Source of the DNA: Quercus robur
Taxonomy: Eukaryota > Streptophyta > Magnoliopsida > Fagales > Fagaceae
NCBI RefSeq assembly: GCF_932294415.1
Contig: NC_065536.1
Location: forward strand, 15,745,974 to 15,809,973
Direction: 5' to 3'
DNA: 64,000 bases
Shown: one piece after another, positions 16,616 through 47,618 of the stretch
How the letters are laid out: each line of letters opens with the position of its first letter
How positions within the stretch are numbered: the stretch's first letter is position 1
Position numbers and translations under genes: made by a program
The notes under the pieces: model-generated
Databases searched by the model: none
What the model was told of the DNA's origin: nothing
Seen by the model: only the letters and a program-made list of their open reading frames with translations

Positions 16616-16739
16616 TCATTTTTTGTCTTGTATGGTGGGAATTGATAAAAGACATTTGAAGTTTAAGAAAAACCATTATAATAAGTTTGGCGATACAACA
16701 ATTTGCACAATTTTTGTTGCATGAGCCAATTGTGATAAA

Positions 16740-18904: not shown

Positions 18905-19290
18905 TCACTCACAATTTATACACAACCAATATAAATTATGTTCCTTATTGTACTAAATAAATATACAAGACCCATAAAATAAATATACAAAATCAATATT
19001 AAAAACTTAAATTAGACAAATAAACACATATTTATTTTTTTAAATTGAGTCTGCTTAGAAGGGAAATGGGCTACTTAGAAGGGAGGCCCACCAGGTGGGC
19101 CAGGGGGCCCTCCTGGCCCAGGTGGTCCACCAAACACTGGTCCGCAGCAGCTCTCTATGATGCAGCAGCAACAGAGGAAATAAAAACTGCCAATCAAAAT
19201 ATCAAAAAAATTAAAAAGAGAGTACAAGACCAATTTTTTTTTCCTCAAAATTTATCACAATTTTACCATTTCTAAATTGGGCTGCACATT
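18905..19290. repeat. Segmental duplicate of 13745-14140
   Basis: This is the partner of the block at 13745-14140. It includes exon 2 of the intact CYSTM-like gene and its flanks. Confidence 0.85.
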
Positions 19291-22914: not shown

Positions 22915-23007
22915 TCAGAAGCGAGGTGGGCCACCAGGCCCACCGGGCCCACCAGGCCCACCAAACAATGGTCCACAGCAATTCTCGAAGAGGCAACAGC
23001 AGCACAG

Positions 23008-23016
23008 GAAATAGAA
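23008..23016. repeat. 9-bp target-site duplication, left
   Basis: GAAATAGAA lies immediately outside the left end of the MULE and is identical to 46967-46975. Both copies derive from one exon 2 sequence of the CYSTM-like gene. Confidence 0.9.
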
Positions 23017-23679
23017 GGCGATTTTGGCCCATTAGCATTGTTTTTTAAAATATTTAGGCCCGAAACACTGTTTGGGAAATATTTAGGGAAGTACCACTTT
23101 TGGGCGTACTCGAGCTTGGAGAGCTCGAGTACCCCATATTTCTGTTCCAGCGTGGCACCTGACGTTGGAACGTTGGAACAGAAAAATTTAAAAAATAAAC
23201 TTGGTACCCGAGCTCATGAAGCTCGAGTACTGCTCAGCCATCTCTCCCTATTACCCCACACTTAAACCTTCTGTTACCCACAATACCCAACCAAGAACAG
23301 AGCAAAACATACCCACAAACCAAACCTCTCAATCTCGCTATCTCCCTCTCTCAATCTCGTTATCTCCCTCTCAATCTAAAGCTATTTCCACACAAATACT
23401 CTCATTCTGCCTCTCAATCTCGCAAATACTCCCATTCTCCCTCTCAATCTCGCGATCTGCTTCATTCTCCGTCTCCGTCTCGCTCTCGGTCTCCCTCTCA
23501 CAAGGTATGTCTCGCTCAGCTTGCATGTTTAGCTTGTGGGTATTTTTGTTTGTAAATTTGTTATTTTTATGCATAGAAATGTTAAACTTACTAAGCCATA
23601 TTGTGGGTATTTTTGTGGGTATTTTTATGGGTATTTTTGTGGGTATTTTTATGGGTATTTCAAACAGAGGGGCATCATT
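23017..23679 (+). repeat. Left terminal inverted repeat of the MULE
   Basis: Its 663 bp match 46966-46316 in inverted orientation. It contains two hairpins: GTACTCGAGCT with AGCTCGAGTAC at 23106-23132, and GGTACCCGAGCT with AGCTCGAGTAC at about 23201-23228. A CTCTCAATCTCG-rich stretch follows, then a 12-bp minisatellite near the inner edge. An open reading frame runs through it, but it is low-complexity and present at both ends, so I do not call it a gene. Confidence 0.92.
23603..23660 (+). repeat. 12-bp minisatellite (GTGGGTATTTTT/ATGGGTATTTTT) in the left TIR
   Basis: About five tandem units are seen here. The right TIR has one unit fewer (46331-46383). This is the only difference between the two TIRs that I noticed. 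Confidence 0.85.
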
Positions 23680-24489
23680 TAGTTAGTTAGTTAATTTATA
23701 TTTTTCGGTGATTACTAGAATGTTGGTCTTGTTGTGCTTGTCTTTTGGGTTCAATTCTGGATTCACTCATGAAAGGTTCTGTCCATGAAAGTCAGCAAAT
23801 AATGAGGCCTACGGATTGAAACCCCAAATTCTACCTGAATAATTTAAAGATATAGGAATGATACCAATCTAGATATCGACATGGATGTTTCATTCAGATA
23901 TGGACCAAACATAAAATTAAAAATTAGAAAGGATATTTTAATTTGGGACAAAATTTAGGCAAAAATAAGTTTTGTACATTAGTTCCCCAAATTAATACAA
24001 ACACATGGTTGCATTGACCAATGAAACACAAACAATATTATATTTCCAAAGACAAGTAACTTCAATGCAGCTGTGTTTGAACATAATTGGGAAACATATA
24101 TTGCACCTAAGCACCTAACATATTGTGCATAAACTTTACCCTTTTATTTGATTTAGTTTAACCACACATGAAATATAGAAGAAGAACAACAACAAAAACA
24201 AGAAATAAAAAACATAAGAATTTAGGTCTCCAAAGTTGTGCTGAGAATCGTCAGGCTACCAATGTTGATAGGAGGAAGTGCCTTTCATGTTATAGTAGAT
24301 AGATCACACTAATTTGAAGAAAAGCAGATCTTTGATCTTTATCGTGACCCTGTTAATGATTCTTAAACAAAAAGAGAAGTTTCATATCAAGATGATTTGA
24401 TACATAGCTTCATAATCTAAAAGGAAAATTTCAGTTTGAAATAATATATAAAACATCATTATACCATTAATTTTTCTATATATTGGTAA
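23680..24489. other. MULE interior without recognised genes
   Basis: AT-rich sequence between the left TIR and the first captured fragments. No recognised coding region. Confidence 0.4.
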
Positions 24490-24600
24490 TTTACACACAC
24501 ACCTTGTATGGGTCTTGAACCCACAACCACACCCCCTACCTTGCTCTTACAAGGGAAGAAGCCATTCGAGCCAGAGCTCATTAGCTCTAATATCATTATA
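24490..24600 (-). mobile_element. tRNA-derived SINE
   Basis: Read on the minus strand, an A-box-like TGGCTCGAATGGC is followed by GGGGGTGTGG and a full B box GGGTTCAAGACCC. This is the Pol III promoter arrangement of plant SINEs. It is inserted within the MULE. Confidence 0.7.
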
Positions 24601-24727
24601 TCATCACTGATATCTAGAAGCCTTTTATTGAACAATCGAACATAAAAACTATCCTAAAACCAGATAAAGTGCGAGCCCACAACAAAAATAGAATTAAACA
24701 TAGTCCTCTTTACAAGAATGTATAATA

Positions 24728-24855
24728 AGCACCTTCTTCATGCGGGTCTTGATTTCAAATTTGCGGGATTTGTTGTAGATGCGCCTTTTCTCAGCTTGAC
24801 GAGCCCTCTTTGCAGCTGAGTCTGCTTTCTTAGTTGGAGCCGCCTCACACACTGC
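24728..24855 (-). pseudogene. Captured fragment of plastid ribosomal protein bS20c
   Basis: The minus strand reads VCEAAPTKKADSAAKRAR, then QAEKRRIYNKSRKFEIKTRM and KKVL. This matches the start of mature chloroplast S20, a nuclear-encoded 30S protein that binds 16S rRNA, just after its transit peptide. Only about 43 residues are present, with no recognisable transit peptide and no C-terminal half. The open frame overlapping it in another phase is a shadow. The fragment lies inside the MULE beside other host gene pieces and is best read as transposon-captured DNA. Confidence 0.75.
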
Positions 24856-25064
24856 TTTCTTGAAAAATTCACAAAACCCAGAATTTCAAATCGTCCTAAA
24901 ATTTCATTACCAGAACTTGGGGTTCTGAGAAAAGAAATGAACAAGGAATTGTCATTCATTGGAACTTGAAAAGGCCAAGACATAAAATTAAAATAAAAAA
25001 AACTTTATTCAACTGTACTTTAGCAGCTGGGTTATTTTCAATTTTTGAAAGTAACAACATGAAT

Positions 25065-25580
25065 CATAAAAATCTAGTCTGCTGTGCAGCCAGTGATTTA
25101 TTTTGGCAGCTGGAATTGTTTTGAGACTGAAGTTCAGTTTGTCCTGAATCTTCTGGACCAGTGATTGAAATTTCAGTCTCTTTCATTGATTTAGTACTGA
25201 AGCCACCATTACTCATGAAGTAAGGCTGTTGTTTAATAGAATTCATTTCCTCACATATTCTTCGCTGCTTTGCACCCAAACTAAGGTAGGCATGCTCATT
25301 TTGTTCCAATGGCCTTTTCCGAAATGATTCTTGACACATCACACCCTCTAATTCTCTCACATCAAGTAGAAGAACCGGTGTATTTAACTCTACTTGATTG
25401 CAGTAAAAAGAAACAAGATGGCCGTAAGTCATTTAAGACAACTCCTTGAGAGTGTGCAGAATCCACTAACTCCACAATCTGCCTGAATATAAGCACACTT
25501 TCAGCTTTGTTTAGTTTACTATGCCCAGGTTTAAGCCAACCTATCAATTCTATGTGTGCAAGATTGACCATTGTTGGCAC
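25065..25580 (-). pseudogene. Captured fragment of a SPA3/SPA4-like gene
   Basis: The minus strand reads GWLKPGHSKLNKAE, FRQIVELVDSAHSQGVVLND and LRPSCFFLLQSSRVKYTGS. This is the N-terminal kinase-like domain of SPA proteins, which act with COP1 in light-dependent ubiquitination. A second frame continues with RELEGVMCQESFRKRPLEQN and SLGAKQRRICEEM, the next part of the same family, and ends in a stop at about 25065. The two parts are in different frames. No coiled-coil or WD40 region is present. It is a partial copy carried in the MULE and cannot make a SPA protein. Confidence 0.7.
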
Positions 25581-25599
25581 TTAATTTTATAATGAGAAA

Positions 25600-26767
25600 T
25601 ATATAATACAAATCCATAAAACATATTTTGTAGCATTGCTGGTTCCAACTTCCAAACATTTTTTTTCTTCAAAAATTCTTGCAATTGGATTTGAATACGC
25701 ATTGTTCAATACGCATATCATGGAAGATGTTATTCTTTCTGCTAAATATAGTTAAGGAAGACAAGGCTCACACCTCAGTCCATACTTGTGGTGCTATTAT
25801 TTCATAATTGCTGGAATTTTATTGTTTCTTCATTTTCTGTTTGATTTTGTTTTCTTTCATTCTTTCTGCTGCTTGTTTCTGTTCAAGAATGGCAGTGGCT
25901 TTTGTCTCCAATATTTTTTTCAGCGTACTAGGTTAATGCAAATGTGAATATGCAAGTTTATTTGAATATTTTAGATTTATTAAAAAGAGAATTTATGCAA
26001 TTTGTATTGTGAAGAATGTTATTGCACCACACAATCGCGTACTCAAATTTTTTTTGTAATTCATTTTATTCAAGTCAATAAGCCATTGAAACTCTATATT
26101 TGAGAAGAAAATTGAACTACCCATGATGCGCTTACATTTTTGGCATTTTTTGGGTGTGATTGGTATGTAAATAACCCAAATGGCGAAAAGTGACAGCATC
26201 AAAATTTATTTCAAGATTTTGTACTAATTAAATAAATTAAAATTTATTAATGACTGCAATCTCTTATTCTTTAAGGAAACTGATATGGTTTTGAGAATAC
26301 TGATTGCCAATGTGAATGGGAACTTGGTATTGTGGTCCAAATGTATATCTTTCCAATGTTAATCGGAAAATTATAATTGTATCCCGGACCCATGAGCTGC
26401 ACAAATCTTTTCACGCACTCACGCACATGCACACATTGCAAGATAAAAAGTTCTGTCTCATGTTAAAAAATAGTTAATGTAATTATTATTTTAACACGTT
26501 TTTATGTTATTTATAATTTATTTTAGTAGTGTAGAGATAAGTTTGAATTGTAGAAACACATGCTTTGATACTATGTTAATTTATCAAAAGAAATGTTAAT
26601 TTGTTAAATGAATCAATTGTCGAAACACATGCTTTGATAACTAACTTTTCTAAAATAATTTATTAAATCAGTGAAAGACTATATTAGATGAATAATGTTG
26701 CCATTTTCAGACAAATTTGTTTATAATTAAAAATAAATAAATAAGACTGTGTTGATGTTGTTTCCAA
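25600..26767. other. MULE interior upstream of the PMD gene
   Basis: AT-rich with no recognised gene. It probably includes the PMD gene promoter and leader, but I could not choose a TATA box among many AT stretches. Confidence 0.35.
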
Positions 26768-29653
26768 ATGCCAGATATGGACCCACATGGAGCTATACAG
26801 ACTTTGTGCACGAGGCAGGATAAGCATCGTTCAAGTTTGCTTTTCGATGCTCCTTTGGAAGGCGAGGTATGCACTTGTTCAATATATGTAGTCGAAAGAT
26901 GGGCGGAATTTAACTTTGAAGCGTACTTATTATGTGGTACTGTAATTATTATTAATACTACGCTGCTCTATTTGCAGGAAGTGCCAGGTGTATTGACTTG
27001 TCGTCACCGAGACAAAGGTCTGCTTGAAGGAGGGGTAGATGGGTTAGATCCACGAATTCTCGCTTATATCACTGATGCGGGGTTAGATGGGCTGCTTCGG
27101 GTCCCACATATGGACATTGACCACGCATTGATCACAGCGTTGGTGGAGAGATGGCGGCCGGAGACGCACTCATTTCACTTGCCCCACGGTGAGATGACCA
27201 TCACACTACAAGATATGGAGGTTATAATGGGGGTACCTGTAGATGGCTTGCCGTTGGTGGAATCTATACCCTCGACGGGCAGTTGGCGTGAAGTCTGCAG
27301 AAGATTGCTAGGGCGTAATCCGCCAAGTAGAGAACTTAGAAACCCAAGAAAGAACACTGGAGTGCTGGAAGGGGCGAGCATAAAAGCCAAATGGCTTGAG
27401 GATCAGTTTCGCGACCCTCTCCCGGTTGACGCCCCTGAGGCGTTTGTGCAGGAGTATGCTCGTTTTTACATATTGGAGTTGTTAGGTGGTACGCTATTTA
27501 TGGATAAGTCTGGAGAACGGATCTCAGTTAGGTATTTGCAATATTTCGATCCAATCAGCAATGGAAAGAAGTATAGTTGGGGTAGTGCAGCACTAAGTTG
27601 GCTCTATAGACACCTCTGTAACGCATCAGAGAAGACAGCCAAGCAGATTGGGGGTGCACTACTATTGGTGCAGTTGTGGGCGTGGGCGAGGTTTCCCCAC
27701 ATATGTCCTGTGATGAGGCATCCACACCAGGCACTGCCTCCAGGTCCACTTGCTGTCAGGTATGTAGCATCTTAGATAGTTATCGTTTTACATTTCCTCA
27801 ATCACTTTGTTCGCATGAGAATTATGTAAGTAACTAATATGAAGGTTATGTCTGTGTTGTTTGCTAGATGGAAAGGGGCTAAGATAACAATTGAACATTC
27901 GATGCACGTCCTACGTGCCTATCGTGTGTCGTTTACTTCACTGCGGCCAAATCAGGTATCGTGTCTTATAAGTGGAAACCGCTTTGGCATGTAGTTTTTG
28001 TACTTACAATTCACTTTGGAGTGAATAAACATTCTTAATTATATATCTTTCTTACTTATCAAAAAAAAAAAAAAAAACATTCTTAATTTCAGAGTTACAT
28101 GTATTGTTCACATTCGTTACACATTTTTTCTAATTATATTGTTAATATGGTTGTTTGCATCTGATGAATCATTGCAGATTGTTTGGGAGCCGTACAGAAA
28201 TTATTTGCGTTCTCTACCCGCATATTGTACGGCAGGCCAACGTATATGGAGGTCTATTGTGCCGCTGATACATTTTTGGGTGGTTGAAGGCCATCATCCC
28301 GAACGTGTTCTCCGACAGTTTGGGATGAAGCAAGGCATACCAGAAAATGTTGATACTTCAATTGAACTGCACAAGATCACCCTCCAGGGCAAGCACGAAA
28401 AAGATTGGGCCCAAATACATGCCCCGCATATTGCTAAATGGGCTGCGCACGCCAAAATTGCCGATGCACCGGCCTTTCACGGGGAGATGAATTACAATGA
28501 CGAGTATTTGGTTTGGTTTCGTCCCCGCACTATTCGCCATATTACAAAAGAGACTTCGTACTGGGACACTATGGTAAATTTACAAAGACTGTTTCATTAT
28601 AAATGTACTTTGCTTCGCATAGTTTAGTTAAACCTACTAACATTACTCTTGTATATTTCTGACAGGTTGAATCACAGTTGCGCATTATAACGAAGTGCGA
28701 ACCAGGGTCTGAGATCTACACCGATTGTATTAATACCTTGCAAGCTGTTGAAGAGATCGGTCGGTTATCCTTGGACCATGCACGTGACGTGGGCAACACA
28801 AGTGAACCAGCTGTACGACGTGGTCGGCAAGCAAGTGGACGTCAAGGGCGTGGAGGCTGTCAATCTAGCCAGCGTCATACATCTAGTCGGCCTCCCACAT
28901 CTGGTCAGCGTCACACACCCGTGCCCACATCTAGTCGACGTCCCACATCTGCTCGACGTCCCACATCTGCTCGGCGTCCTACATCTGGTTCACGTCACAC
29001 ACCCGTGTCCACATCTGGTCAGCGTCACACACCCGTGCCCACATCTAGTCGGCGCCACACACCCGTGCATGACCACACCATGGAGGAAGCAAGTCAGACA
29101 ACAGATGAGATGTCAGACGACACCGCTTATGACGTAGGCTCCATGGCACACGATGATACGGGTCCATCCCATACGTTTGCCCATAGAGACACATTTGGGT
29201 CCCCATCCATGAGGAGCGATGGTACTTGCCCACCCACACCCCCTAGTACATCTCTGTTGCCCACCACCTGTACGTCTCCCCCACTGACTGCCGGCCTTGC
29301 CCCCGCAGTTTTAGATGGTAGAGATGAGATGAGGTTCATGCCCACTCCTGGGCGACCCACCCCTGTTGCTGTCCCCCCTGAGTTTGTGCATACCGAGTTT
29401 ATCCAGACACAGATACCCACCCCCCCATCAGAGCCTTCGCACATCGAGGATCGGCCACGAAGGCCGCAACGCACACGGACACATCCTCCTGACTGTGGGA
29501 CTGGACATGGTACTATAGTTTGATTCGATACCGATTACATATACATCGCTTTATAGTTAAATCATTTGCTTATTAATATTTGTTTGTGTTGTGTTCTTTT
29601 CAGGCAAGGTGAGACCAGTCAAGGAACCGGTGAGGAGAAGAAAACGAGAATGA
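26768..29653 (+). CDS. Plant mobile domain (PMD) protein carried by the MULE (six exons)
   Basis: Exons are 26768-26866, 26978-27759, 27868-27955, 28178-28573, 28666-29509 and 29604-29653. All have GT-AG junctions and consistent phase, giving 752 residues. Residues about 40-420 form the PMD fold (ILAYITDAGLDGLLRVPHMD, LVERWRPETHSFHLPHGEMT, LQDMEVIMGVPVDG, QIGGALLLVQLWAWARFP). This domain is shared by transposons and the host MAIN/MAIL genes. The C-terminal third is Ser/Thr/Pro/Arg-rich with tandem RRPTSA and HTPV(P/S)TS units. It ends in a basic RRRKRE tail that may be a nuclear signal. Intron 1 (111 bp) is in frame and free of stops, so it could be retained. The biochemical function of PMD proteins is not established. 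The gene is open throughout, which agrees with a young element. Confidence 0.82.
28041..28074 (+). mobile_element. Very short 5'-truncated LINE tail with 14-bp target duplication
   Basis: In PMD intron 3 the sequence AAACATTCTTAATT occurs at 28027-28040 and again at 28075-28088. Between them are ATATATCTTTCTTACTTATC and a poly-A run, only 34 bases in all. A poly-A tail plus a long target duplication is the hallmark of target-primed reverse transcription, here heavily 5'-truncated. Confidence 0.65.
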
Positions 29654-30278
29654 TTCAAGGGCAGAATTTGTGCTTTGGGTTTGTAATGGTATAGGATCTT
29701 TTTGTCATGTATAGGATCTTCTTGTATATATTTTATATGATGAGCCACTATTATGCAATCCACATGGATTACAAGATATAGACTGGAATGTTATAGGCAT
29801 TCTTATATAGATGATTTCATGGTAGTGGTTGATAAGCATTGTGCATGCTTTAGTAAGCATTGTGGCAACAATCAGTTGTTATGGGATGTTTCTATTAATG
29901 GGTATTTGGTAATTGTAGAGATGAATGTGGGATGTTTAGAAATGCAATAGAAGGAAACTTTTTGTTGAAGTTGGGCGTAGCGAATGTAGATGCAATTATA
30001 ACTGTGAATTTTATTATTAATTGTGTGTTCAGCCTCTAGAAAGGGTCTACGAAGTGGAATTATTAACATTGTTTAGATTTAGGTCCAATGTAGAGTGGAT
30101 TTGGCAACCCAAACCTTTCAAATCTCACCTGCCAAGGGCTGGAATTGAAACTGTGTACTTGTATATTTATCAAATTTTTCACCTTTGCAAATTATGAGGA
30201 ACCCTTTATTGTAAAGGTCAGCTACTGCCATATTGTCAGTGGACGGATTCTATTTCAGAAACTATATGTTTTTTTCAG
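29654..30278. other. PMD 3' flank and start of the captured NT-C2 segment
   Basis: No complete gene. Near 30100-30210 the plus strand may hold a degraded earlier exon of the NT-C2 gene described next (around GGCAACCC...ATTGAAACTGTG), but I cannot support a frame. Confidence 0.35.
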
Positions 30279-32040
30279 GATGACTCTTCAAAGGAGCTAC
30301 AGGATTGTTTCTTCAAGCTTGTTGTCTCCATGGTATTGTTGTTTCTACCACATACTCTTTCTTTTGGTCATTAACCTTTGTTCATCTTCCTTTTTTCTTT
30401 CCTGCTAAATGAGATATGATTCATGACATTATCTCTTTGCCAATTTTCCAGCCTCTAAATAAAAACATACCTTGTGCTTCTTGTACTTCTTTTTTATTTC
30501 AGTTTATCTATTAGAATGTGTGTGTTATAGACTTGTAGTCATCAGCTCCATCTGTTTAAACATTCTGGTTATCTAAATAATTTTGGATGACTTTCTTACT
30601 GTAGGGTTCAGCCCCATCTGGCATCCTTGGAGAGGCTACAGTCAATATGATAGGCTATATGAGTTCACCTGCTCCTGTTCCAGTTTCACTAAGATTGAAA
30701 AAGTGCAATCATGGGACAATTTTACAAGTGAGTTGTACAATTGTATGCTATTTGTTTCTTGGTGTTTGTTTAGACTTTGCCACGTTACACATCATTAGAA
30801 AAAAAATTAGGACCTTCTTCTTATACCTATCTGATTCTTTTTCCCCCTTTTGGGAGAGATATTTTATGTCTTTATTATGAAAGGTTCAAGCCCTTGAAGA
30901 AGAATTAAAGCTGATGAAGGACGGGAAGCAGAACCAGAGGGAGTCCAGCACTATGAAGGTTCCTAGTTTGTCTAAAACCCATGCTAAAGTTACTCCTGTC
31001 CATGAAGATATGAAGCCCTCAAAGGTCAGTTTCATTTGTTCTGCAATTGCATGGTAATATTCAGTGTCAACACTAACTAAATAGCCTTTTTACTTGTACA
31101 TTGGTTTAGAAGAATGAAGTGGTGAAAAACACTAGTCAGCAACGTGATAATAAAAATAAGCAATCCTTGAAGAATGCTCAAGTACAAGAACTTGCAAAAG
31201 ATCATCAGAAGCTTTGTAGCAACCAATATCAAAGAGAGGTAGGGTATCCGAATATTTGGTTTATTCAAATATTGCCCCATAGCTATTGTACATTAGACTC
31301 AACTTATTTACATAGGGCTAAACGGATGGTGGAAAATCTGCTGATTGTCACCAAAAGAACATTTTCTCATCTCTTTCATCATGCATATATCTCTTGTTAT
31401 ATCTGCATGAGAATATTGAATTGCAAAGGAATCCTTTAGTTTGGATGATCTCATCTTAAACTTTTTTTCACAACATATGACTCTGTTGTTTAATTCTTAA
31501 AGGATGGTAGTGGCAATGAGATTCTTGATGAAAGTCCTCTTGCTGTTGGAGTCGATCCTGCTTCAAAGATTCAGTTGATTCCTTGACTTTTTCTGAAATA
31601 GTGATAAAAAACAAACTTCTTAACCACAATCATCATAGTCTAGGAGTCTGATTTTTAATCTTATTACTCAACAATAAATAGCAAATAAAAGAACTGTAAT
31701 TTTGTTTATTACAGGAAACTAGCATAGGCCTTAAGCATGCAAAACTCTACTTAATTTTTTTAGTTCTACTTTTCATTCTGAACAGAATTTTCTGCATCTT
31801 TGCTGCAGGTTGTCTAAAAGCCGAAACAACCATGCACACTCTCCTAAAAAATCAATAGCAGAAGATGACATAGTGGCAAAAGAAAGTAATGGACGCACCA
31901 AATCATCACTAGAGGCAGAGTTAATAGACATTCGCGAGCGATACCTCCACATGAGCCTCAGATACGCTGAGGTAGAAGCTCAGCGTGAGGAACTTGTGAT
32001 GAAGCTCAGGGCTAGCAAAAATGTAAAAAGATGGTTTTAA
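30279..32040 (+). pseudogene. Captured NT-C2/coiled-coil protein gene fragment with introns
   Basis: Exon-like blocks lie at 30279-30332, 30605-30727, 30884-31024, 31110-31238, 31503-31586 and about 31810-32040, with GT-AG borders for the first four. The first two read DDSSKELQDCFFKLVVSM and SGILGEATVNMIGYM...CNHGTILQ, part of the NT-type C2 domain of plant myosin-heavy-chain-like proteins. The next blocks are charged coiled coil. The last carries the family's typical C-terminus (IRERYLHMSLRYAEVEA, LVMKLRASKN, KRWF then stop). The fifth block runs into a stop instead of a donor, and the long central coiled coil is missing, so this is an internally deleted copy. Retained introns show it was captured at DNA level. 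Confidence 0.7.
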
Positions 32041-32613
32041 TGAACTCATGACCATAAACAAGCAATTTCTTGTACTTTTTCAGTCTCCCCAATTCAGGTA
32101 GCTTGTTCCACGAATTTTTGAAGTATCTAAGATTTCTCAATCTTTTACGTATATTCCAGAGTGTGAGTTATTGTAAAGAAGAATAATACACCCCTAGCCC
32201 AGCATAGAGACGTGAAAGAAATAAAACAAAATGGTTTTCTTTTTTCCTTTTCTTTCTTAATTTCTTTCTTTCTTCTTCTTTTATTTTTTATTTTTATACA
32301 AACAAGGAGCAGGCAAAATAAGGAAAGAAACCCCAAAGTATAATGTTTTATAATGTGGGAAAATGGAGTAGGTCTACTTTCCTGAACTACTTTTCAACAA
32401 GATTTTTAAAAGTAATACAGCAAAATCCAATAGCATTTCAATTGTCACTAAATAAATTCGAATATCATTTGAATATTCTTGTAATTATACTGTAATTGTT
32501 CGTACGGAAGCCATTGGTGGTGCAAAGAGCTTACAAACTAGAGGTAGAAAAAAAACTTTTTTTAGGGGGAGCTGTGTGTAATAGCGCTGGGCCACACCTG
32601 GGAACTTTGCAAA
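32041..32613. other. MULE spacer before the first palindrome array
   Basis: AT-rich, with CTTT-rich tracts at about 32230-32290. No gene recognised. Confidence 0.4.
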
Positions 32614-33496
32614 GTACCCGAGTCCACCAAACTCGGGTACTCTGCTAGTGGAATTTCCAAAATTGGCAGGTGGGTACCCGAGCTTTCAAGACTCGGGTAC
32701 CTTGTGAAGTACCCGAGTTCACCAAGCTCGGGTACCCACCTGCCAATTTTGAAAATACGAGAGTTTGACTATTTCGAAACTGGGCTGGTTGGTACCCGAG
32801 CATGGTGGACTCGGGTACTTTGTGAAGTACCCGAGTCCACCAAACTCGGGTACTCTGCTAGTGGCATTTTCAAAATTTGCAGGTGGGTACTCGGGTACCT
32901 TGTGAAGTACCCGAGACTACCATACTCGGGTACCAACCTGCAAATTTTGAACATGCGAGAGCTTGACAATTTGGAAGTTGGCAGGTTGGTACCCGAGCTT
33001 GGTGAACTCGGGTACTTTGTGAAGTACCCGAGTGTACCAAGCTCGGGTACCAACCTGCCAATTTTGAAAATACGAGAGTTTGACTATTTCGAAACTGGGC
33101 TGGTTGGTACCCGAGCATGGTGGACTCGGGTACTTTGTGAAGTACCCGAGTCCACCAAACTCGGGTACTCTGCTAGTGGCATTTTCAAAATTTGCAGGTG
33201 GGTACCCGAGATTTCTAGACTCGGGTACCTTGTGAAGTACCCGAGACTACCATACTCGGGTACCAACCTGCAAATTTTGAACATGCGAGAGCTTGACAAT
33301 TTGGAAGTTGGCAGGTTGGTACCCGAGCTTGGTGAACTCGGGTACTTTGTGAAGTACCCGAGTGTACCAAGCTCGGGTACCAACCTGCCAACTTCCAAAT
33401 TGTCAAGCTCGTGGTACCTTGCAAATTGGCATTTTTTTTTTTTTTTTTTTAAATATGAAGTCTGCCTAGTACCCGAGCATGGTGGGCTCGGGTACT
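32614..33496. repeat. Nested palindrome array 1 (15 hairpins with constant arms and variable loops)
   Basis: The 27-nt unit GTACCCGAG-N9-CTCGGGTAC occurs about 15 times, the first at 32614-32640 and the last at 33470-33496, plus one collapsed copy near 32886. Arms are nearly invariant. The 9-nt loops vary (TCCACCAAA, CTTTCAAGA, CATGGTGGA, ACTACCATA, CTTGGTGAA, TGTACCAAG, ATTTCTAGA). Hairpins come in pairs joined by about 8 nt (TTTGTGAA type). Within several pairs the second loop is nearly the reverse complement of the first, so each pair is itself a larger dyad, extended by GGCAGGTTG/CAACCTGCC flanks. A unit of about 313 bp is duplicated (about 32755-33067 and 33068-33395). Long open frames through it on both strands are a by-product of the repeats. 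Confidence 0.9.
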
Positions 33497-33540
33497 TCAC
33501 AAAGACCGCTACCAAGTTACGCGAACTTGGTTGGCGTTAA

Positions 33541-35335
33541 TTATTATTTTTTTTTTATTGACGATAAATCAATGTGTAATGAAGCCAACGTTTTTTTTTT
33601 TTCTTTATTTTTGTCATGAGAATAAATAAATTATAAATGTCATGTCACCTTTTCATTAGCCACATAAGTATTATTTTTATATTGTACACACAAACTTCCA
33701 CACACATTATTATTTACACAAATAATATTATAACAAAAAATAATGCACACAATCAATATTACATATACTCTCATACACATATAATATAAATAATAATGCT
33801 AGAGACGACAAACTGTCAATCAAATTTTTTTACAAACTGCTGTTGTGGTGAGTGATTAAGCTATTATGAAAAAATGCATATTAGTGGTAGGCCTAAATAA
33901 AAAACCAATAACAAGTTGGCCACATCAACATTTTGTACAAATTGTTAATTATGGTTGTAACATTACTGTAATATAAATTTATGATAGAGTGACACTTACA
34001 ATCTACAAACACTTATTCTAATCTTCAAACAAAAATGAAAAAAAAAGAGCTATAAATGAGCATTTGATCTTCCAAATTTAAGTGAAATTCACCTTTTTTT
34101 TTTCCCTGCCCACTTGTCTGACGCCAACCACTAAGTTAAGGCAAATGGTACCTTCTGACTCTCCCTCACCAGCTTACTTGTACACTTTATGACCATAATG
34201 ACTCTTGCACTAACATCACAAGTCCATGTGAAGAGTCTGTTGTTGCCGTGTGAAATATTCCTGAAGCTATTTACAGTTGGGTCACCATCTGCAGCTGAAG
34301 TGTGAAGTGTGTCAGTTTTTTCCATTGCAGGCAAAGCATTTCACCTTTGGGTCCTGCCTATTGTATACATAGAGGTAAGTTAAATGTTTTGTCTGATTGT
34401 GTGTGCATGTGTGGTTCGTATGACATTAATTTTGCATGACCACAGTTCATGAGTTCAGTTTTTTGCAACACCGCAGGTCCATGTACAACTGCTGATATAT
34501 TAAAAATTGTGTATATTGTGAAATCTAAAAATATTAAAAATATAGCAAATACTTGTAAAGTTGTGTATATTGTTTGCTGTCTGATTGCTTCTCACAATAT
34601 GCCCCATTCGTCATTTACTTCTCTATCCTTCTAAATATTTAAAAAACTTAGTTTATAACAAAAATTCAGAATTTAAAATTGTAAAAAAATTTATACATAT
34701 ATGATGAAATTGTTCACATTCATTTATGAGATAAGCAAGAAAGGCAAGTGATGTGAATAGTGATATTGGTAAAGAAAATGAACGTCTATACAATATCAAA
34801 AATCATTTGGGGGGAGCCACAGTTAACATAAACTATATCTAAATAACAAAAAACTCAAGAAGAAGAAAGAAATTCGTATCATTAAAACTTATATTTGCCT
34901 ATGCTTTGGGGAATTCATTTTATATTTTATGTTTCTATGTATTTAGTTATTTAGATGTAAAAGAATTTGTATCATTGTCATTATATTTGCCTATGCTTTG
35001 AATCTTAAATTTAATATTTTATTTTTCTATGTATTTTATTTATTTAGATGTAAAAGAATACTATGTCATTATATATTGTTTATTCTATAATTTACAAGTT
35101 ATCTAAATATTAAATAAAACACAGTTTTTGTTTACAATTTGCAGGCAGCCAAGTATTGTAATTAAATATATTATAAATTATAGATATGTGGTTAAAACGA
35201 TTGAAAATTATTTATATCTCTATACAGAAAGTTTAGGAGGTTGAGTTTGAATATAATTTGTTTTTATCATACGTCATCTTTATTTAAGTGGTTATAGATG
35301 ATGACAACTTTTATATTGTTAATAATAGGTCGGTG
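33541..35335. other. AT-rich spacer upstream of the transposase gene
   Basis: No coding region recognised. It probably holds the transposase promoter. An internal near-duplicate containing AATTTGTATCATTGTCATTA and ATATTTGCCTATGCTTTG is seen at about 34878-34910 and 34968-35000. Confidence 0.4.
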
Positions 35336-38277
35336 ATGGATTTTCACTTTTTCTATGTGTACTACGACGGGGAGATGTATTATCATGACTTGCATGGGTT
35401 GTCATACCAAGGCTCGAACCAACAGCAAAAATACGTTAAGGTGAAACGTGGGATAGGGCTTATGAACTTGCAACGAAGAATATTGAAGGCGATGGGGTTA
35501 GACCACTCTAGGCATAAGATTTCCATCGTGTATCGAGCACCTCAACGGGTTGTAGACACACAGGTTTTCTACAATTCACTACAATTATCGGGTGGCACCG
35601 AAGTGAAGATGATGTGGGAAATGGTTGCACAAATGGTGGCTCGAGGATTCATTGCTTCGGATCTCTATGTCACTGTTGAGCCCGCCACAGTAGAGGCTGG
35701 AGAGGGTTCAGAACATACTGTTTTGGATGGAAGAGTAGATGAGCACATCGAGTCAATACCAGAAAGATCTTATGAAGGGTGTGTAGAGAACACAGGAGAT
35801 GGGTATGGCAATGAATCGTGGCAGACATTTGCCCATGGGAACTCGATTGAGGAGGAGGAAGGGCCCCAGCAAGTGCATGAAGGAGAGCATTTACCTGATG
35901 ATGAGCTCCATAGGGGCACATCCGACAATAACCCTAATGATCACGGAGTTGGTGATGATGCAACCCATATCGATGTTACTAGGGATGACTTCGAGGAGCT
36001 CCTAGATACCATGGGTGAACATGAGGATGTTGATCATATCGAAGATGTGGTTGTAGAAGAAAATAGAGAGACATGCCCCGGTCCCGATCCTACGCCGGAA
36101 TGGTTCACCCAAAACACTTGGGATAATATGTTTGATCCATCACCGGTTATGCAAGCGGAAGTATTACCATGGACGCCTGGGGAGCAGCCAATTAAAGGGA
36201 TGGTATTCGCAACTAAATTGGCGGTGCGACGTGCGTTGACTTGGTACGCAGTGCGAGATAATTTTAGCTTCAAAACTGAGCATTCAGACTCAGAGAGGCT
36301 TATGGTGAGTTGCGAGGATGATTCCTGTCCATGGTCAGTCCGTGCGATATGTTGCAAGGGAGACAATATCTGGAAGATCGCAAAATGCAAGGGCCCCCAC
36401 ACGTGCGACAAAATTCAGAATGCTCATGATGGTCGGATGATTGATTCGGTGTTCTTATCATATGTACTTGAGCGCTATATACGAGAAGACCCTGCGTATA
36501 AGATAAAGAACTTACGCCACGTTGCTTTGGCAGAGTTAAAACACGAAATATCTTATTACAAGGTATTCTATTCTTTAACTTGCATTATATTTTCAATACA
36601 ACATAGAGACATCAGTCTTTTGGGAAGTATAATCATGATATTTTTTTTCCCAAAACCCATGAATACTTTATATTATGAAAATTGAAATTGAAAAAAGAAA
36701 AGAAAAAAAGGAATGCGGAGCGAAGAAATAATATAGTCTTACAAGTCTTGATTTGTTTTCTTCAAGTTTCTTTATTTAACTTGTATTCATTTCTAACGTA
36801 ATCATTATGGTTCACATACAAGGTATGGGATGCCAAACAAAAGGCCGTTGCATCTATATACGGGGATTTTAAGGAGTCTTATGCGGAGTTGCCGCGTTTT
36901 TTGGCAGGACTGAAGGACGCAAGTCCGGGTACAGAGTATAAGTTAATAGTGGACGATAATTATGAACAGGGAACCTGTACATTCAAGTCCGTATTTTGGG
37001 CGTTTCGTCCATGTATTGTTGGGTTCAAGAAGTGTAGGCCTGTGATTAGCATTGATGCAACCCACCTCTATGGAAAATATAAAGGGAATTTGATGATTGC
37101 AATGGCGACAGATGCTAATAATAAAATTTATCCAGTAGCCTTCGCCGTTGTCGAGAGCGAGAGCACAGAGACTTGGGGTTGGTTCTTGGCTTGTATAAGA
37201 ACGTATGTTACTGACCGGAGACACCTGTGTGTCATATCTGACAGACACCCTGGGATACAAGCTATTTTTAGAGACAATAATCGAGACTTTTCCCTGCGGC
37301 CTCCCATGACAGAACATCGTTACTGCCTTCGTCATCTATGTAGTAACGTCAACACTAGATGGAAGAATGAAACTTTAAAGAATCTAGTATGGAGGGCAGC
37401 AAGTGCTACCCAAGAGCGAAAGTTCAATGCCACCTTCGAGTTAATTGAGAATGTCAACCGGGATGCGCACCAATATCTAAAGGATGTGCCCAAAGAGAAA
37501 TGGGCTCTAAGTTTTGACAAGGGTTATCGTTATGGGGCAATGACGACAAACGTCTCTGAGTGCTTCAATGGTGTTCTAAAGGGTGCTCGTAGCTTGCCCA
37601 TTACGGCAATGGTGAAATACACATGGTTCAAATTGAATTCTTACTTCGATGATCGTCGCAATAAGAGCATAGCACAGTCAAATTCGGGACAAAAATGGAC
37701 TAAATATGCCTTGGATATCTTCATGAGAAATAAGGCGAAGGCGGAGCGTCATAGGGTGACAAGATTGAGCGCGCAACAACAATCATATCAAGTAGATACA
37801 CCGCATAATCCAGAGAGTGCTGGACATGGGGATCACACACATGGAGTTAATTTGTTGCAAAGAAGTTGCACATGTCAAAAATGGAAGTTGTACAAGATAC
37901 CATGTTCACATGTCATTGCAGTTTGTATTAGGTATCGACATGATGCAGAGCAATACATTGACCCATGCTATAGCGTGGATGCACTGTTTCGGAGCTATGC
38001 TCCCGTTTTCCCTGCGTTGAAAGATAGATTATCATGGCCGGATCCTGAAGAAACTCGAAGGGTCCTCCCTAACCCCCGATTGATTCGAGAGAAAGGCCGC
38101 CCTGTCTCAACACGAATCAGGAATGAGATGGACGAGGGTGGGAGACGGCGGAGAACCACACCGTGGAAGGAGGGGGGGAGGAAGGTGCAATGCGGGTTGT
38201 GTGACCAAGAGGGGCATAACCGAAGAACATGCCCTAAGCGGAATGAGGTACCGACAAGTGGTGGTGTCGCAGACTAG
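35336..38277 (+). CDS. MuDR-type MULE transposase (two exons, open)
   Basis: Exons are 35336-36562 and 36823-38277 with a GT-AG intron, giving 893 residues. The open frame extends upstream of 35336 without an ATG, so MDFHFFYVYYDGEM is the first Met that fits. Residues about 1-115 resemble the MuDR N-terminal domain. Residues about 285-355 form the Mutator DNA-binding zinc region (CEDDSCPWSVRAICC...HTC). The MULE catalytic domain has Asp at about residue 487 (VISIDATHLYGKYKGN) and Asp at about 549 (CVISDRHPGI). The third acidic residue is likely near 617 but not certain. A SWIM zinc finger (CTCQKWKLYKIPCSH) starts at about 758 and a CCHC knuckle (CGLCDQEGHNRRTC) at about 866. It would bind the terminal repeats and cut and paste the element. 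It lies between the two palindrome arrays. No internal stop is seen. Confidence 0.92.
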
Positions 38278-39633
38278 GTACGCTAATTTTAAACCGTGGC
38301 ATTCTTCTAAATGCAACTTGAAACAAAATGCATGCTATATGCCATTCAATTATGTATTTTTATAACTTAAGAAAGATTGGAAAAAATTTGAAGGACCAAC
38401 TATGACATATATCGTTAAAATATCATCGTTGCTTGTGTACATGTGGTTCATTCCAATTCCAAAGTTTTGGGACTAAGACTTTCTCTTCTTATGCTTGGTG
38501 TTGATGACTGCATTATTTCTAGTGTTGATTTTGTATGTGTTGGATCATTATGTGTAAAATGCTAATGCCCATTTCTTACAAGTGTTTTTCAATCGTATCA
38601 TCCATTGGATTGAAACAAAAAATAGGATATGATGTGAATGAAGTGATAAGTATTCAAATTCAGCATGCTGAAGTCCCTATTTTTGCAAAATATTTCAACA
38701 ATTGATGGTATTCTAATCAACTCATTTTCCCATTTATCAAGTGCTGTCATTTATCTACCACATTGTTAAAAAAAGTTCAAAAAAGTAGGACTTGTTTTGA
38801 TTTTGTGTAATTATTAGAATGAACTTCCAGATACTAATACTATAGTCTATTTGTTTGATATTACATCATGAGCATGACTACTAGGTTGCTGATTTATCTG
38901 TTTCTGTTGTTTTCCAAAGGATGCTTCTTCACATCGTCTGGAGGCTTGAGGAGTTATGCACACCCCCTTAATGAGGTGAAGCCTGTGCCAAGGGTGGAAA
39001 TTTCTGGTCAGGTGTGTGGTGTAACTTTCACCGTGGATGAAGAGTCGAAGAGGGAAAATGTCGGCATGCCAAGAGTTGGAAGTGCTACCAACTGCTCATC
39101 TAACTACTAATATTGTTATAGTTTCCTTTTATGGCATGGCTATCATTATTAGTGGGCCTTGCCTTTGATCTCCTTTTTGTTATCATACTACTCTCATCTT
39201 GAAAGGCTTGAAATGCTTTTATGGGTGCTTAGATTTATATCCTTTTTAGTACTACCAAAGACATGATTTTATGTTGCTGTACATGTTGCGTAATGTCAAA
39301 CTAAGCCAGGATCTCAAGAAATAATATGATTGCTCTTCAAGACTGATCAATGGTAGATTTCTATTTGATATTTTTCTCCATTTTTATCGCTTCTTGAATC
39401 AGGCTTTGATCATGATAATAATTTCGGTCACATTCTTGATGATAATCAGGGCAGCTAAAGCTTTTCATTGCTTTCCTATTGGTCTGATTCATGATTTACA
39501 ACTTTAAAGTAAATCATCACATGACGGATAAATACTGAAATACTGAAAGACGCAAAAAGAAAAAAATGAAAGAAGATACGAAACCATTCTAATTAAGTCT
39601 CGCCAATTAAAAACAAAAAAGAGAATTACCCAT
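38278..39633. other. Transposase 3' flank
   Basis: AT-rich with no recognised gene. An 80-residue open frame at 38868-39110 has a hydrophobic start but no family match. Confidence 0.4.
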
Positions 39634-40154
39634 GTACTGAGCTTGGTGGACTCGGGTACTAATCTGACAGTCATTTTTTTTCTGTTCTGAAATTTGGTAA
39701 TTCCGGAGTAGGCAGATTGGTACCCGAGCTTGCTAGACTCGGGTACTTCACAAGGTACCCGAGTCCAGGAAACTCGGGTACGAACCTGCCAATTTTCGAA
39801 ATAGGCCTGGGTACCACGTTGACAATTTTGAAAATTGGCAGGTTGGTACCCGAGCTTTCTGGACTCGGGTACCTTGTGAAGTACCCGAGTCTAGCAAGCT
39901 CGGGTACCAAGCTGCAAATGAACAAAATAAGACTGGGTAACCAATGTTGGAAATTGGTAGGTTGGTACCAGAGTTTGGTGGACTCGGGTACTTCACAAGG
40001 TACCCGAGTTCACCAAACTCGGGTACCAACCTGCCAATTTTCAAAATAGGACTGGGTAACCAATGTTGACGATTTTGCAAATTGGCAGGTTGGTACCCGA
40101 GATTTGTGGACTCGGGTACTTCACAAAGTACCCGAGTCCACTAAGCTCGGGTAC
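39634..40154. repeat. Nested palindrome array 2 (eight hairpins plus a degenerate one)
   Basis: The same GTACCCGAG-N9-CTCGGGTAC unit occurs at about 39720, 39756, 39847, 39879, 39965 (one arm mutated), 40000, 40094 and 40128. A degenerate copy lies near 39634. They form four pairs with spacers such as TTCACAAG. Loops of pair 1 (CTTGCTAGA, TCCAGGAAA) are the near reverse complements, in reverse order, of the loops of pair 2 (CTTTCTGGA, TCTAGCAAG). The two pairs are therefore inverted copies. Pairs are separated by CAACCTGCCAATTTTC and its complement, giving dyads of about 100 nt. Confidence 0.9.
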
Positions 40155-40199
40155 CAACCTGCCAACTTGCAAATTTGTCAACATGTACCCAGTCCTATT

Positions 40200-43100: not shown

Positions 43101-43764
43101 CAGATACCCAAAACGAATGCAACCCAAATAGACAAAAACAAAAACAATTCTAATCCAATTTCTTTAGGCAAAACCCAATATAACCCAAATACCAAAAAAT
43201 AAAAAATAAAAAACAAAAGAACCATCAGTCCGTGCTGACAGTGGAGGCAACCCACAGATTTCAATCTCTACCTTACAGACTCAGACTCTCTCTCAGTTGT
43301 ATAGGTCTATATCATCAGTCCATTTTTTCCCGTTGTTAAAAAATAGAGAGAATGACATGGGATTAGGCAAAAATGGAACCAAATTATGATCAGTGAAACT
43401 TCAAAGTGGAAATATTAGAGAGAGAGAGCATTTACCTATAGTGTGTTAGCTGAAAATACCAAAAAATGGAACCAAATCCCCTTTCTCTATGATCTATTTC
43501 TCTCTCCCTCTTTCAATATCTTCTCACCTTAGAAAGGAGAAACTTCAATTAAACTTACCTACACTAAGTTTCAAAATCACCAACACAACCTCACAAGTCA
43601 CAGCACCCACACAAACAAACTAGTTAAGTTCTTCACAACACATTATTCACCAAAAACTAAAACCCAAATAAAAAACTTAGTGGGAACCACAAATTCAATG
43701 AATTCTAACCCATTCCCATTATCACTGACCCTCATGCAAGAAAAGAAAACAGTCTTATCCACCT
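40200..43764. other. Long gene-free stretch in the MULE
   Basis: I recognise no coding region, RNA gene or known repeat family here. The sequence is AT-rich. A purine-rich stretch at about 43300-43460 (GAGAGAGAG) and C/T-rich text at about 43490-43520 could be the leader of another captured gene. I cannot support this. Confidence 0.35.
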
Positions 43765-44810
43765 ACAGAAACAGATAGAGAACAGCCTCAGAAGAAAATC
43801 ATAATCAAACGGCCCAAAGAAATTATTGACCTGGACCAGGTCAGTCAGGATGGAAGTCCTAGTTTTGAGTTCCGGAAGACTAAAAGAATAGTTGAATTAT
43901 CAAATACTGCAAAGCACGGGAGGTTCTTCTGAAGTTGGATGTTTGTGAGGAGGAGATTGCGAAACTGACTACGTGGCACCGTATTGCTATGATACGCAAA
44001 CTTTCAAGTGAGCAAGCTGCATCGGGGATACAGATTGATCCCACAACTATCAGCAAGTATGCGCGTGGCCAGCAGATGTCATTTCTTCAACTGCAACAGC
44101 AGACAAGGGAGAAGTGTCAGGAGATTTGGGAACGACAAGTTCAGAGTCTTTCTGCCTTAGATCGTGAAAATGAGAGTGACTCTGAAGGAAATAGTGATCT
44201 TGATTCATTTGCTGGGGATTTAGAGAATCTTCTTGATGCAGAGGAATGTGAGGAAGAAGTAGGTAACTATGAGTCAAAGCATGACAAAGCAGATGGTGTT
44301 AAGGGGCTCAAAATGAGAAGGCGCCCATCCATAGCTCAGGCAGAAGAGGAAAATGAAGATGAAGCCGTTGAAGCTGCCGAATTATGCAGGTTACTCATGG
44401 AAGATGATGAGGCTGAGAGGAGGAAGAAGAAAAAGACTAAAGTTGTGAGGGAGGAAACAGGGCTGGCTTTGGGCTTGCAACCAAGTTTTGGTTTTGAGAA
44501 CACAAATCGGATCAAGCAAATTGTCAGTACTGCCCAACCTGATGGGTCCTATTCTTCCAAAGAGATATTTAATAAAGACATGAAGGAGGTAGAAAATGTT
44601 ATTGCGAAAAAAGGCAAGTATGGAAAGCTTTAGGTGAAAGCTTTAACGAAAAAGAATGATATCACAAGTGTTGGTCTAGTCAGTAAGAAAATCAAAATAT
44701 CGGGAGATGAAGTCAAGGTTTTTAAGGACAGGAAATCTGCAAGAGAGAGTTTTGTTTGTGGGGCATGTGGTCAGCTTGGACATATGAGGACAAACAAGAC
44801 AGGAAACATG
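43765..44810 (+). pseudogene. Rearranged, partial TAF1 (TFIID subunit 1) copy
   Basis: At about 43768-43920 the plus strand reads QPQKKIIIKRPKEIIDLDQV and FEFRKTKRIVELSN, then hits a stop. From 43935 another frame reads LTTWHRIAMIRKLSSEQAAS, MSFLQLQQQTREKCQEIWER and SDLDSFAGDLENLLDAEE. After one in-frame TAG at 44631 it continues with ARESFVCGACGQLGHMRTNK, a zinc knuckle. These are conserved parts of plant TAF1, the large TFIID scaffold. In the host protein, as I recall it, the KIIIKRPKE block follows the zinc knuckle, so the order here is inverted. The main 0.9-kb part has no evident introns, and the bromodomain is absent. The copy is non-functional and carried in the MULE. Confidence 0.75.
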
Positions 44811-44934
44811 AAAAATATGGATTTTAGGGTGAGATGGGCAGGGGATGCGCACCCTCAAAACCTTTTTCTTTTTCCCAGAGAATACACACCCCACAACCTT
44901 AATTATGGACTAACCTTTTTTTTGCTGTGAGGTG

Positions 44935-46315
44935 GACTTATTCTAGTAATGATCTCCTTTTCAATAATAGAATCCTAAACTGAATTTATACATTAAGAGA
45001 ATCATGAAGCACATGCAGGAAACACAATTCTTATATGCTGTATATCTCATTGAATCTAGAAACTTTTGCTTGCATTGTATTATTTAGTCTATGTATTGGA
45101 ATTGATACATTCGAGATTATGCAAGACTATACATGAAAGATCCTTTTTTGGCTCTCTTTTTTGCTAGTTTTTTCCTTATCTTATGTGTGCTCTAAAGGTT
45201 GCAGGGAAGTTTATGTTTGTTGTTTCTAATCAAATCCTTCATGACTCATGAGCCTTCTTAATCATTATAAATTCCTTTAAAACTCTTCCTAATCACCTAT
45301 GTTGTCTCTGTTTGAAGAACCTGCTAAGCATTTAGAAATTGAAGTGTATGATGCTGATCAATTAAAAACGCAAACTTAGACTATAAAAAAGAGAGAATCA
45401 AATTAAGGCTTAGATTAGTCTAACCTCTCAAATAAAAGCTAAACTTCCTATAAGACACAACCACTCTGATTTGGAATCCAATTTCAACATCAAGATGTCA
45501 AATTGAGATATGGCAGCTCATGTACACAACAGAAAAACAAGCATGGTAGTCGGAATAGAAGCTTTTGTAAGTAACATTGTCATCAAGGTTTTAACACTGC
45601 ACTTTGCAAAGTTTGGTGAAGCTCAAATTTGAGCAATATCAATTGTAGGTTTATATTTGTTGCCTTTGTTTGCTTCAAGAACTACAATTATACCACCACT
45701 ATTTAGTGTTGAGGGTAAATTGCATTTTTGGTCCCTCAATTTTAAAAGGTTTGATTTTGGTCTTACAAATTTTTAAATTTAGCAATATAATCCCTGTCTA
45801 AAAGCCATGAAAGTTGAAATATTGGAAAAACACCCATTTCCAAGGGCAAGTGCAACTCTACAAACTCAACTAAAATATATGGTTCATATACGTGTATTGA
45901 AAATTTAAAACAAAAACCAAGACATGGAATTGCAGCGCCAAAACCAGTTGGATTAGTGAAAATTAAGAGAAAAAGAACTCAAATTTTTCGGAGAGAGAGA
46001 GCTTACAAAGCGCCATTGAAGGGGAAATGGTCCGCGTGGCGACTCTGTGAAATGAAATTGAAAACCCTAATTGGTCGGAGACAGGGAGAAGAAAGGGCGA
46101 AGAAGAAGATGAGGACGAAGACGACGTCGCACCACTGTCACCCAACGGAAAAGGCCATTACCATCGCTCCTCCAACAACCACCACTTTCCCTTCTCCTAT
46201 TCCCTCAGGCGCGACGGCGACGGAGACCACGATTCCACTCCCCCGGCCATCATCGATACGCGAATTAGCCTTACAAATTATGCATAAAAATACCCACAAA
46301 TTAGCCTCAGAAGTG
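44935..46315. other. MULE interior before the right TIR
   Basis: Mostly gene-free. At about 45960-46260 the sequence becomes GC-richer. On the minus strand it resembles a plant 5' leader plus a short open start (MALCKLSLSEKFE at about 45990-46030), possibly a captured first exon. I cannot name the donor gene. A copy of the 'GGTAAATT...TTTTGGTCC' repeat lies at about 45719-45800. Confidence 0.35.
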
Positions 46316-46966
46316 AATGATGCCCCTCTGTTTGAAATACCCATAAAAATACCCATAAAAATACCCACAAAAATACCCACAATATGGCTTAGTAAGTTTA
46401 ACATTTCTATGCATAAAAATAACAAATTTACAAACAAAAATACCCACAAGCTAAACATGCAAGCTGAGCGAGACATACCTTGTGAGAGGGAGACCGAGAG
46501 CGAGACGGAGACGGAGAATGAAGCAGATCGCGAGATTGAGAGGGAGAATGGGAGTATTTGCGAGATTGAGAGGCAGAATGAGAGTATTTGTGTGGAAATA
46601 GCTTTAGATTGAGAGGGAGATAACGAGATTGAGAGAGGGAGATAGCGAGATTGAGAGGTTTGGTTTGTGGGTATGTTTTGCTCTGTTCTTGGTTGGGTAT
46701 TGTGGGTAACAGAAGGTTTAAGTGTGGGGTAATAGGGAGAGATGGCTGAGCAGTACTCGAGCTTCATGAGCTCGGGTACCAAGTTTATTTTTTAAATTTT
46801 TCTGTTCCAACGTTCCAACGTCAGGTGCCACGCTGGAACAGAAATATGGGGTACTCGAGCTCTCCAAGCTCGAGTACGCCCAAAAGTGGTACTTCCCTAA
46901 ATATTTCCCAAACAGTGTTTCGGGCCTAAATATTTTAAAAAACAATGCTAATGGGCCAAAATCGCC
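46316..46966 (-). repeat. Right terminal inverted repeat of the MULE
   Basis: Its 651 bp are the inverted match of 23017-23679 and 12 bp shorter because of one minisatellite unit. They carry the same two hairpins (about 46755-46782 and 46851-46877). Confidence 0.92.
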
Positions 46967-46975
46967 GAAATAGAA
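46967..46975. repeat. 9-bp target-site duplication, right
   Basis: GAAATAGAA directly abuts the right MULE end and is identical to 23008-23016. One base further lies the exon 2 acceptor of the split CYSTM-like gene. Confidence 0.9.
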
Positions 46976-47618
46976 ACTGCCAACAAAATAGCCCAAATTA
47001 GAAACTTTTAAAATGTACCAAACAAAAGCAGAATGATAATTTATAATATATATTATATCATAATCTACATTACTACTTTCTTTTTCGTTTTTCTTTTTTT
47101 CATTTTCTCAAACTAGGTTGTACATTGATATAAAATTAACGATCATTTTTTTGTGATATTTGTAATGAGATAAAGTTTAGCTACAATATTGATTATAATC
47201 TTAAGCTATAACCTTATTTAATATCTTTCTATTGGAGGTGATTTTTGACAAACCCACCATTGAATTACATATTCTTCTTATAATATCCATGCTTGCAAAA
47301 CTTTGTCCTTTGTAATGGGTATGATTCAAAGTTTCTTAAAAATGAATTACAAGTTTGTTAATCCAGTCCAATATATATGTAGCACCTTAGCCAAGCTCAA
47401 TTGAATCCTAATTTTTCTGTTCTATTTTCAACTAATTAACAAGATTATCCCCAAAAAGAAGTAGCATTCTAATTTTCAAGAAAAAAAAATAAAAAAATAG
47501 TAAAAATAAAAACTCACCAGGAAGATACAAGCCTGCATATACCACCACAGAGAAAATCACAGCAACCAAATGGTCCTGGACCGGGAGGCCCTGGTGGAGG
47601 TCCCCAACGAGGAGGCAT

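Follow-up and report, generated by a model that had tools for sequence, protein, structure and literature searches.

A large, probably autonomous Mutator-like element in exon 2 of a small cysteine-rich gene of Quercus robur

Genes for the plant mobile domain (PMD) within Mutator-like elements (MULEs) have already been described (PMC5418596, PMC6446971), and the clades MUDR, MDR and MUDRAVI2 have been tabulated with such genes (Dupeyron et al., 2019; PMC6446971), while the role of the PMD gene for MULEs was called undetermined (PMC5418596). The window considered here is the whole stretch of 64,000 nucleotides from Quercus robur (GCF_932294415.1, NC_065536.1, positions 15,745,974 to 15,809,973 of the forward strand). 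It harbors a large, young, probably autonomous PMD-MULE with cargo, and its sequence leaves little doubt that this complete element of 24 kb inserted in a single jump, as a whole, into exon 2 of a gene encoding a small cysteine-rich protein.

The oak element shares with MUDR, MDR and MUDRAVI2 a DDE transposase with SWIM, target duplications of 9-10 bp, long inverted termini and an extra PMD gene. It departs from them in the length of its termini, which is 651-663 bp against 30-447 bp in the rows of PMC6446971 compared, in its size of 24 kb with gene pieces and motif arrays, and in carrying PMD and transposase on the same strand, whereas they are often antisense in that table. With Pack-MULEs (Jiang et al., 2004, as cited in PMC6431247) it has in common several host gene pieces between MULE termini; however, those Pack-MULEs measure at most 7 kb according to PMC6431247, and the definition given in PMC6446971 includes the absence of a transposase gene. 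Since its transposase is retained and open, the oak element is not a Pack-MULE in the strict sense. In VANDAL elements, MULEs likewise equipped with an extra gene, the anti-silencing VANC proteins bind short motifs within non-coding tandem repeats prone to expansion and contraction (PMC10398659); the oak element has comparable repeats, but its motif also occurs in the long termini, no VANC gene was noticed in it, although no search was aimed at one, and a PMD protein standing in for VANC is a proposal only. Pack-TIR gap filling (PMC8277862), in which filler is joined at microhomology within an element with terminal inverted repeats (TIR), offers a further parallel, with the difference that the oak filler is a spliced TAF1 copy. 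In the open-licence literature on large or PMD-bearing MULEs and on spliced capture, as far as it was covered, no description of this 24-kb family was found. The initial annotation had regarded the pairing of PMD and transposase as noteworthy; this does not hold, as the pairing is known and ordinary in several MULE clades (PMC6446971), whereas the 24-kb size is not ordinary. Captured gene pieces, motif arrays and a family of copies similar in size did not figure in that annotation.

The borders of the element can be fixed to the base, as had been claimed, by a 9-bp duplication on both sides and by inverted ends. The interval initially annotated, 23008-46975, has the right borders but includes both duplications, so that the element proper is shorter:

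23017-46966: MULE proper, 23,950 bp
23017-23679, plus strand: left terminal inverted repeat, 663 bp
46316-46966, minus strand: right terminal inverted repeat, 651 bp

The duplicated target GAAATAGAA occurs on the plus strand of the window in two places only, 23008-23016 on the left and 46967-46975 on the right, with one extra place on the minus strand at 30248. Both termini start with GGCGATTTTGGCCC, and all 651 aligned bases are identical, so that the 663-bp and the 651-bp terminus differ solely in a single repeat unit, 12 bp long, within a small tandem repeat. Long inverted termini and a duplication in the range of 8-11 bp are thus both found, as expected for the MULE superfamily. Both termini also contain a splice-donor-like CACAAG/GTATGT behind a CT-rich leader (23490-23505 and its mirror), which looks as if transcripts initiated in the termini were spliced inwards.

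Outside the duplications lie the two halves of one gene on the minus strand:

46967-47618, minus strand: right half of the host gene, with exon 1 (47618-47518), the intron and the first 10 bases of exon 2 (46976-46967)
22915-23007, minus strand: left half, the remainder of exon 2 up to the stop codon

On the right flank the acceptor TTGGCAG is followed by T and TTCTATTTC, which make up the 10 exon bases, and the left flank resumes exon 2 with CTGTGCTGC. Joined with one copy of the target, the flanks yield an open protein of 67 amino acids, rich in cysteine, proline and glycine, from two exons (exon 1 of 101 bp, intron of 541 bp), and two exons of paralogues elsewhere in the window, at 19201-19093 and 14030-13952, can be aligned unbroken through the insertion point, which bears out the interruption of exon 2 proposed initially. 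The gene had been called CYSTM-like; a small cysteine-rich gene it is, but the protein has no Pfam family at E<=1, CYSTM included, and the CYSTM identity is therefore not supported. A search of the whole genome with the 67-residue protein matched six places, of which two are the halves of the gene itself, three are paralogous and lie in the window, and the last is weak (E 0.62), so that the genome searched shows no empty allele. Read through, exon 2 would continue into the terminus and its cysteine-rich tail would be replaced; this copy of the gene was most likely destroyed by the insertion, with two paralogues adjacent. The tandem paralogues span 13952-20441 and comprise an exon 1 (20441-20338) and two copies of exon 2 (19201-19093 and 14030-13952).

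An exact 14-base search with the terminus found 154 places in the whole genome, 100 of which were listed, and seven two-ended copies were compared, W being the copy in the window; a partial stretch at C4:76.23 Mb was left out. Their lengths are 23,950 bp (W), 23,445 bp (C1), 23,950 bp (C2a), 23,959 bp (C40, at C40:5415178-5439136), 20,898 bp (C3b), 14,054 bp (C4a) and 12,139 bp (C2b). Thus, the unusual size for a MULE noted at first is borne out by C1, C2a and C40, and the genome search for copies of similar length that had been suggested returned several. Duplications of 9-10 bp flank six of the seven (W, C1, C2a, C2b, C3b and C4a), that of C1 being its own CAATACTAC. W and C1 differ by 25 mismatches in three collinear blocks that together cover about 23.7 kb, end to end (0.1%), while C40 and C2a differ from W by about 1.2-1.3%. 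Within every full copy, gaps aside, no more than one or two bases distinguish the two ends, if any. Judged from the copies alone, the element moves as a unit, near-identical full copies with duplications of their own being found elsewhere; together with the near-identical ends, they indicate that the unit moved whole and recently. The same terminus also occurs at both ends of short elements, 0.6-0.9 kb in length (C1:19081295-19082037, C1:23770186-23771045 and C1:54715008-54715644), and a fold-back derivative was observed at C37:65053961-65055335, in which two inverted copies, 100% alike, of 0.65 kb from just inside the terminus flank 84 bp of the PMD region.

Two genes of its own are carried by the element, in agreement with its first description as a MULE with transposase and PMD:

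35288-38277, plus strand: MURA-like transposase, exon 1 at 35288-36562 and exon 2 at 36823-38277
26768-28624, plus strand: PMD gene, Pfam PF10536 (E 1e-53 and 6.6e-20, two exons)

The transposase has one intron (borders read by eye), its first in-frame ATG at 35333 and 894 amino acids from there, and matches the Pfam domains DBD_Tnp_Mut (PF03108, E 1.9e-12), MULE (DDE; PF10551, E 6.4e-19) and SWIM (PF04434, E 6.6e-10), hence the DDE transposase with SWIM zinc finger typical of the superfamily; a CX2CX4HX4C knuckle was read by eye. It is free of stops and frameshifts in W, C1, C2a and C40, and its frame is identical in W and C1. Against three diverged copies (dS 0.18-0.23), its ratio of nonsynonymous to synonymous substitution (dN/dS) is 0.32, 0.49 and 0.42. 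The first PMD exon ends at 27759 and the second spans 27868-27955 (splice sites by eye), with a third part inside 28139-28624; dN/dS of the PMD gene is 0.68, 0.67 and 0.54 against three diverged copies, 0.65 against C2a and 0.36 against C40. Of 29 PMD places chosen from a genome search, 21 have a match to the transposase no more than 40 kb away, so that the PF10536 gene stands beside a transposase as in the PMD-carrying clades. In diverged relatives at C3:7451120-7467381, C3:63205888-63217270 and C38:27028566-27050468, PMD and transposase lie on opposite strands.

A further trait of the element is the motif GTACYCGAG, with 55 places in the window, all 55 inside the element (mean 0.15 and maximum 1 in 100 shuffles), four in each terminus and the other 47 divided between internal arrays of 31 and 16:

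23106-23132 and 23204-23230: palindromic motif pairs of the left terminus
46753-46779 and 46851-46877: palindromic motif pairs of the right terminus
32614-33495: first internal array, 31 half-sites GTACCCGAG
39651-40154: second internal array, 16 half-sites GTACCCGAG

The motifs are arranged as inverted pairs with a spacing of 18 bases, and neighboring pairs are separated by 17. The first array counts 31 half-sites in W, 20 in C1, 13 in C2a and 13 in C40, and the six other two-ended copies have 20 to 44 half-sites per copy. The array-type pair GTACCCGAG-N9-CTCGGGTAC occurs at 161 places genome-wide (reversed control 0), and all 50 of those listed sit in loci of this MULE family. The terminus-type palindrome GTACTCGAG-N9-CTCGAGTAC has 1,091 places (control 0), from which it follows that a large family of short passenger elements may exist. 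All three short two-ended elements fetched (C1:19.08, 23.77 and 54.72 Mb) have one pair per end, about 89 bases from the tip, and this position and its conservation in short passengers point to a candidate site required by the transposase.

Between these parts the element contains pieces of host genes and other gained sequence:

25075-25589, minus strand: host gene piece, 89% to C4:35218193-35218747, with only a sub-threshold kinase match in Pfam (E 0.0062), presumably SPA-like kinase
30880-32579, plus strand: host gene piece including intron sequence, 96% and 91% to C35:7364333-7366505, which we take to be an NT-C2/coiled-coil protein
38859-39107, plus strand: piece of an aluminium-induced-protein gene (DUF3700, Pfam E 4.7e-15)
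43759-44798, plus strand: TAF1 complementary DNA (cDNA) patch, in which part of a later exon, reaching to about 43921, precedes an earlier run of five exons that lack the introns between them
44793-45032, plus strand: repeat adjoining the TAF1 patch, 98% in an older copy at C2:69.64 Mb
45028-45902, plus strand: recently gained piece, 97-99% to C2:93741112-93742270, of which 281 bp are missing

The matches to TAF1, DUF3700, C4, C35 and C2 thus lie between MULE termini in the manner of Pack-MULEs. Which of two matching loci was donor and which receiver is supported for TAF1 only, where the host locus has introns and is therefore the donor. Relative to the copy at C3:19.38 Mb, the piece at 30880-32579 has lost 350 and 413 bp; splicing can be excluded for both gaps, which are deletions between the 4-bp repeats AAAG and GTTG, one of them removing coding sequence. 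It is likewise excluded for the 281-bp gap at 45575, which has no GT-AG borders on either strand.

The frame of the TAF1 patch at 43896-44630 matches human TFIID subunit 1 (E 3.5e-13), and exon blocks that are contiguous in the element are separated by about 0.40, 0.16, 5.8 and 0.09 kb at the host locus on C40, with intron borders GT-AG three times and GC-AG once. As in a processed retrogene, four introns are missing at splice sites, and an RNA step is therefore needed. The later exon segment comprises 163 bp (C40:24375266-24375104) and ends within that exon, the two segments of the mRNA are joined in swapped order, and a 6-bp insert causes a stop in the frame, for which reason no full-length part of the TAF1 protein is claimed. 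The earlier run is present in twelve loci, the window included. An origin from circular RNA, in which a later segment would precede an earlier one, was considered and is excluded, since the late segment stops short within an exon rather than at a donor; a search of the fetched host stretch for an exon or back-splice upstream of the TAF1 start gave no match for the nine bases GCACGGGAG before 43923. That the piece is an ordinary retrogene inserted into the element, with no repair patch involved, is possible but doubtful: the four junctions without introns, bordered by host splice sites, speak for it, whereas the piece is an internal fragment in two swapped parts, neither a poly(A) tail nor a target duplication was seen at its borders, its ends join the flanks at short shared bases, and at C2:69.64 Mb, in the older copy, about 2.6 kb of other sequence lies between these flanks, without TAF1 except for a 28-bp match to intron sequence. 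The simplest order of events would be the loss of this stretch of about 2.6 kb, followed by repair with TAF1 cDNA. The stretch at this position in the older copy (C2:69636218-69638809) contains a reading frame, presumably of a Der/EngA-type GTPase.

For the element as a whole, the alternative of most weight is that its transposase or PMD gene is non-functional and that it moved in trans with the help of a relative. The exon borders were read by eye and many gene-less short derivatives exist, which would fit such a passenger; we nevertheless consider it unlikely, as the transposase frame is open, identical in C1 and intact in C2a and C40, where it shows neither stops nor frameshifts. It is very improbable that a small MULE landed first and was enlarged in place by later insertions: the interior is indeed a patchwork of host pieces and repeats, but the same patchwork recurs in C1 (0.1% mismatch) as well as in C2a and C40 (about 1%), and it was therefore present before the jump into the host gene. 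Compared with C1, the window copy has just one peculiarity, its larger first array with 31 half-sites against 20. Equally hard to credit is a misassembly that put unrelated termini around an exon, for while several near-identical 24-kb copies can mislead assembly, the flanks form one exon with one duplication per side, the window is without N, C1, C2a and C40 show the same order between their own flanks, and C1, with its own 9-bp duplication, matches end to end.

The insertion of a complete, probably autonomous unit must nonetheless be weighed against several observations that do not favor it. The 14-base terminus pattern is a weak probe, its reversed control giving 60 places against the 154. 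The full-length C40 copy lacks a 9-10-bp duplication, only TTGTT being common to both sides, perhaps because its flank was altered after insertion. A lone terminus, L003 (C1:13815911), has no motif inside its end and palindromes outside it, and among the 50 listed places of the terminus-type palindrome, all on C1, only a few could be placed in known elements, and this form may not be private to the family. Stops number 0, 17 and 12 in the three diverged transposase copies, whose frames are also broken by 3, 7 and 6 gaps, and their dN/dS values of 0.32-0.49 are therefore upper bounds for the active lineage. In close pairs, dN/dS exceeds 1 both for the transposase (1.7 for C2a and 1.6 for C40, with about a dozen changes) and for PMD (1.23 for C3b and 1.4 for C4a, with few changes).

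A mechanism consistent with the unit jump can be proposed. The element's own transposase would bind the 27-bp palindromes located some 90 bp from either tip, pair the ends and mobilize the entire unit through a cut-and-paste reaction. Repair of gaps would add copies, and faulty repair would patch the interior with foreign sequence, in one case TAF1 cDNA. The internal half-site arrays, with numbers varying between copies, would serve as docking places for a DNA-binding protein encoded by the element, candidates being the transposase or a PMD protein that counters silencing as VANC does in VANDAL elements. More tentatively, and with less confidence than the insertion itself commands, PMD-carrying MULEs might possess their own sequence-specific self-recognition, in which PMD or transposase reads the GTACYCGAG 27-bp palindromes, at the termini for cutting and in the internal arrays to evade silencing or to fold 24 kb so that the ends meet.

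Elsewhere in the window, open frames flank the element at 4805-5362 and 58087-58719, which we take to be eIF2B epsilon and HASTY/exportin-5.

DNA transposons are held in the literature to become less efficient as their size grows (PMC6431247). A family with several members of 21-24 kb and intact ends, one pair of them only 0.1% apart, contrasts with this expected size penalty. It provides a young, datable case for how a 24-kb MULE brings its ends together, for what the PMD gene does for MULEs, the motif arrays allowing a direct binding test, and for how DNA transposons take up host sequence, in this case even that of spliced mRNA. If the proposed self-recognition system is real, it would be a counterpart of VANC and VANDAL based on a different protein, and would account for the size of the element as well as for the purpose of PMD.

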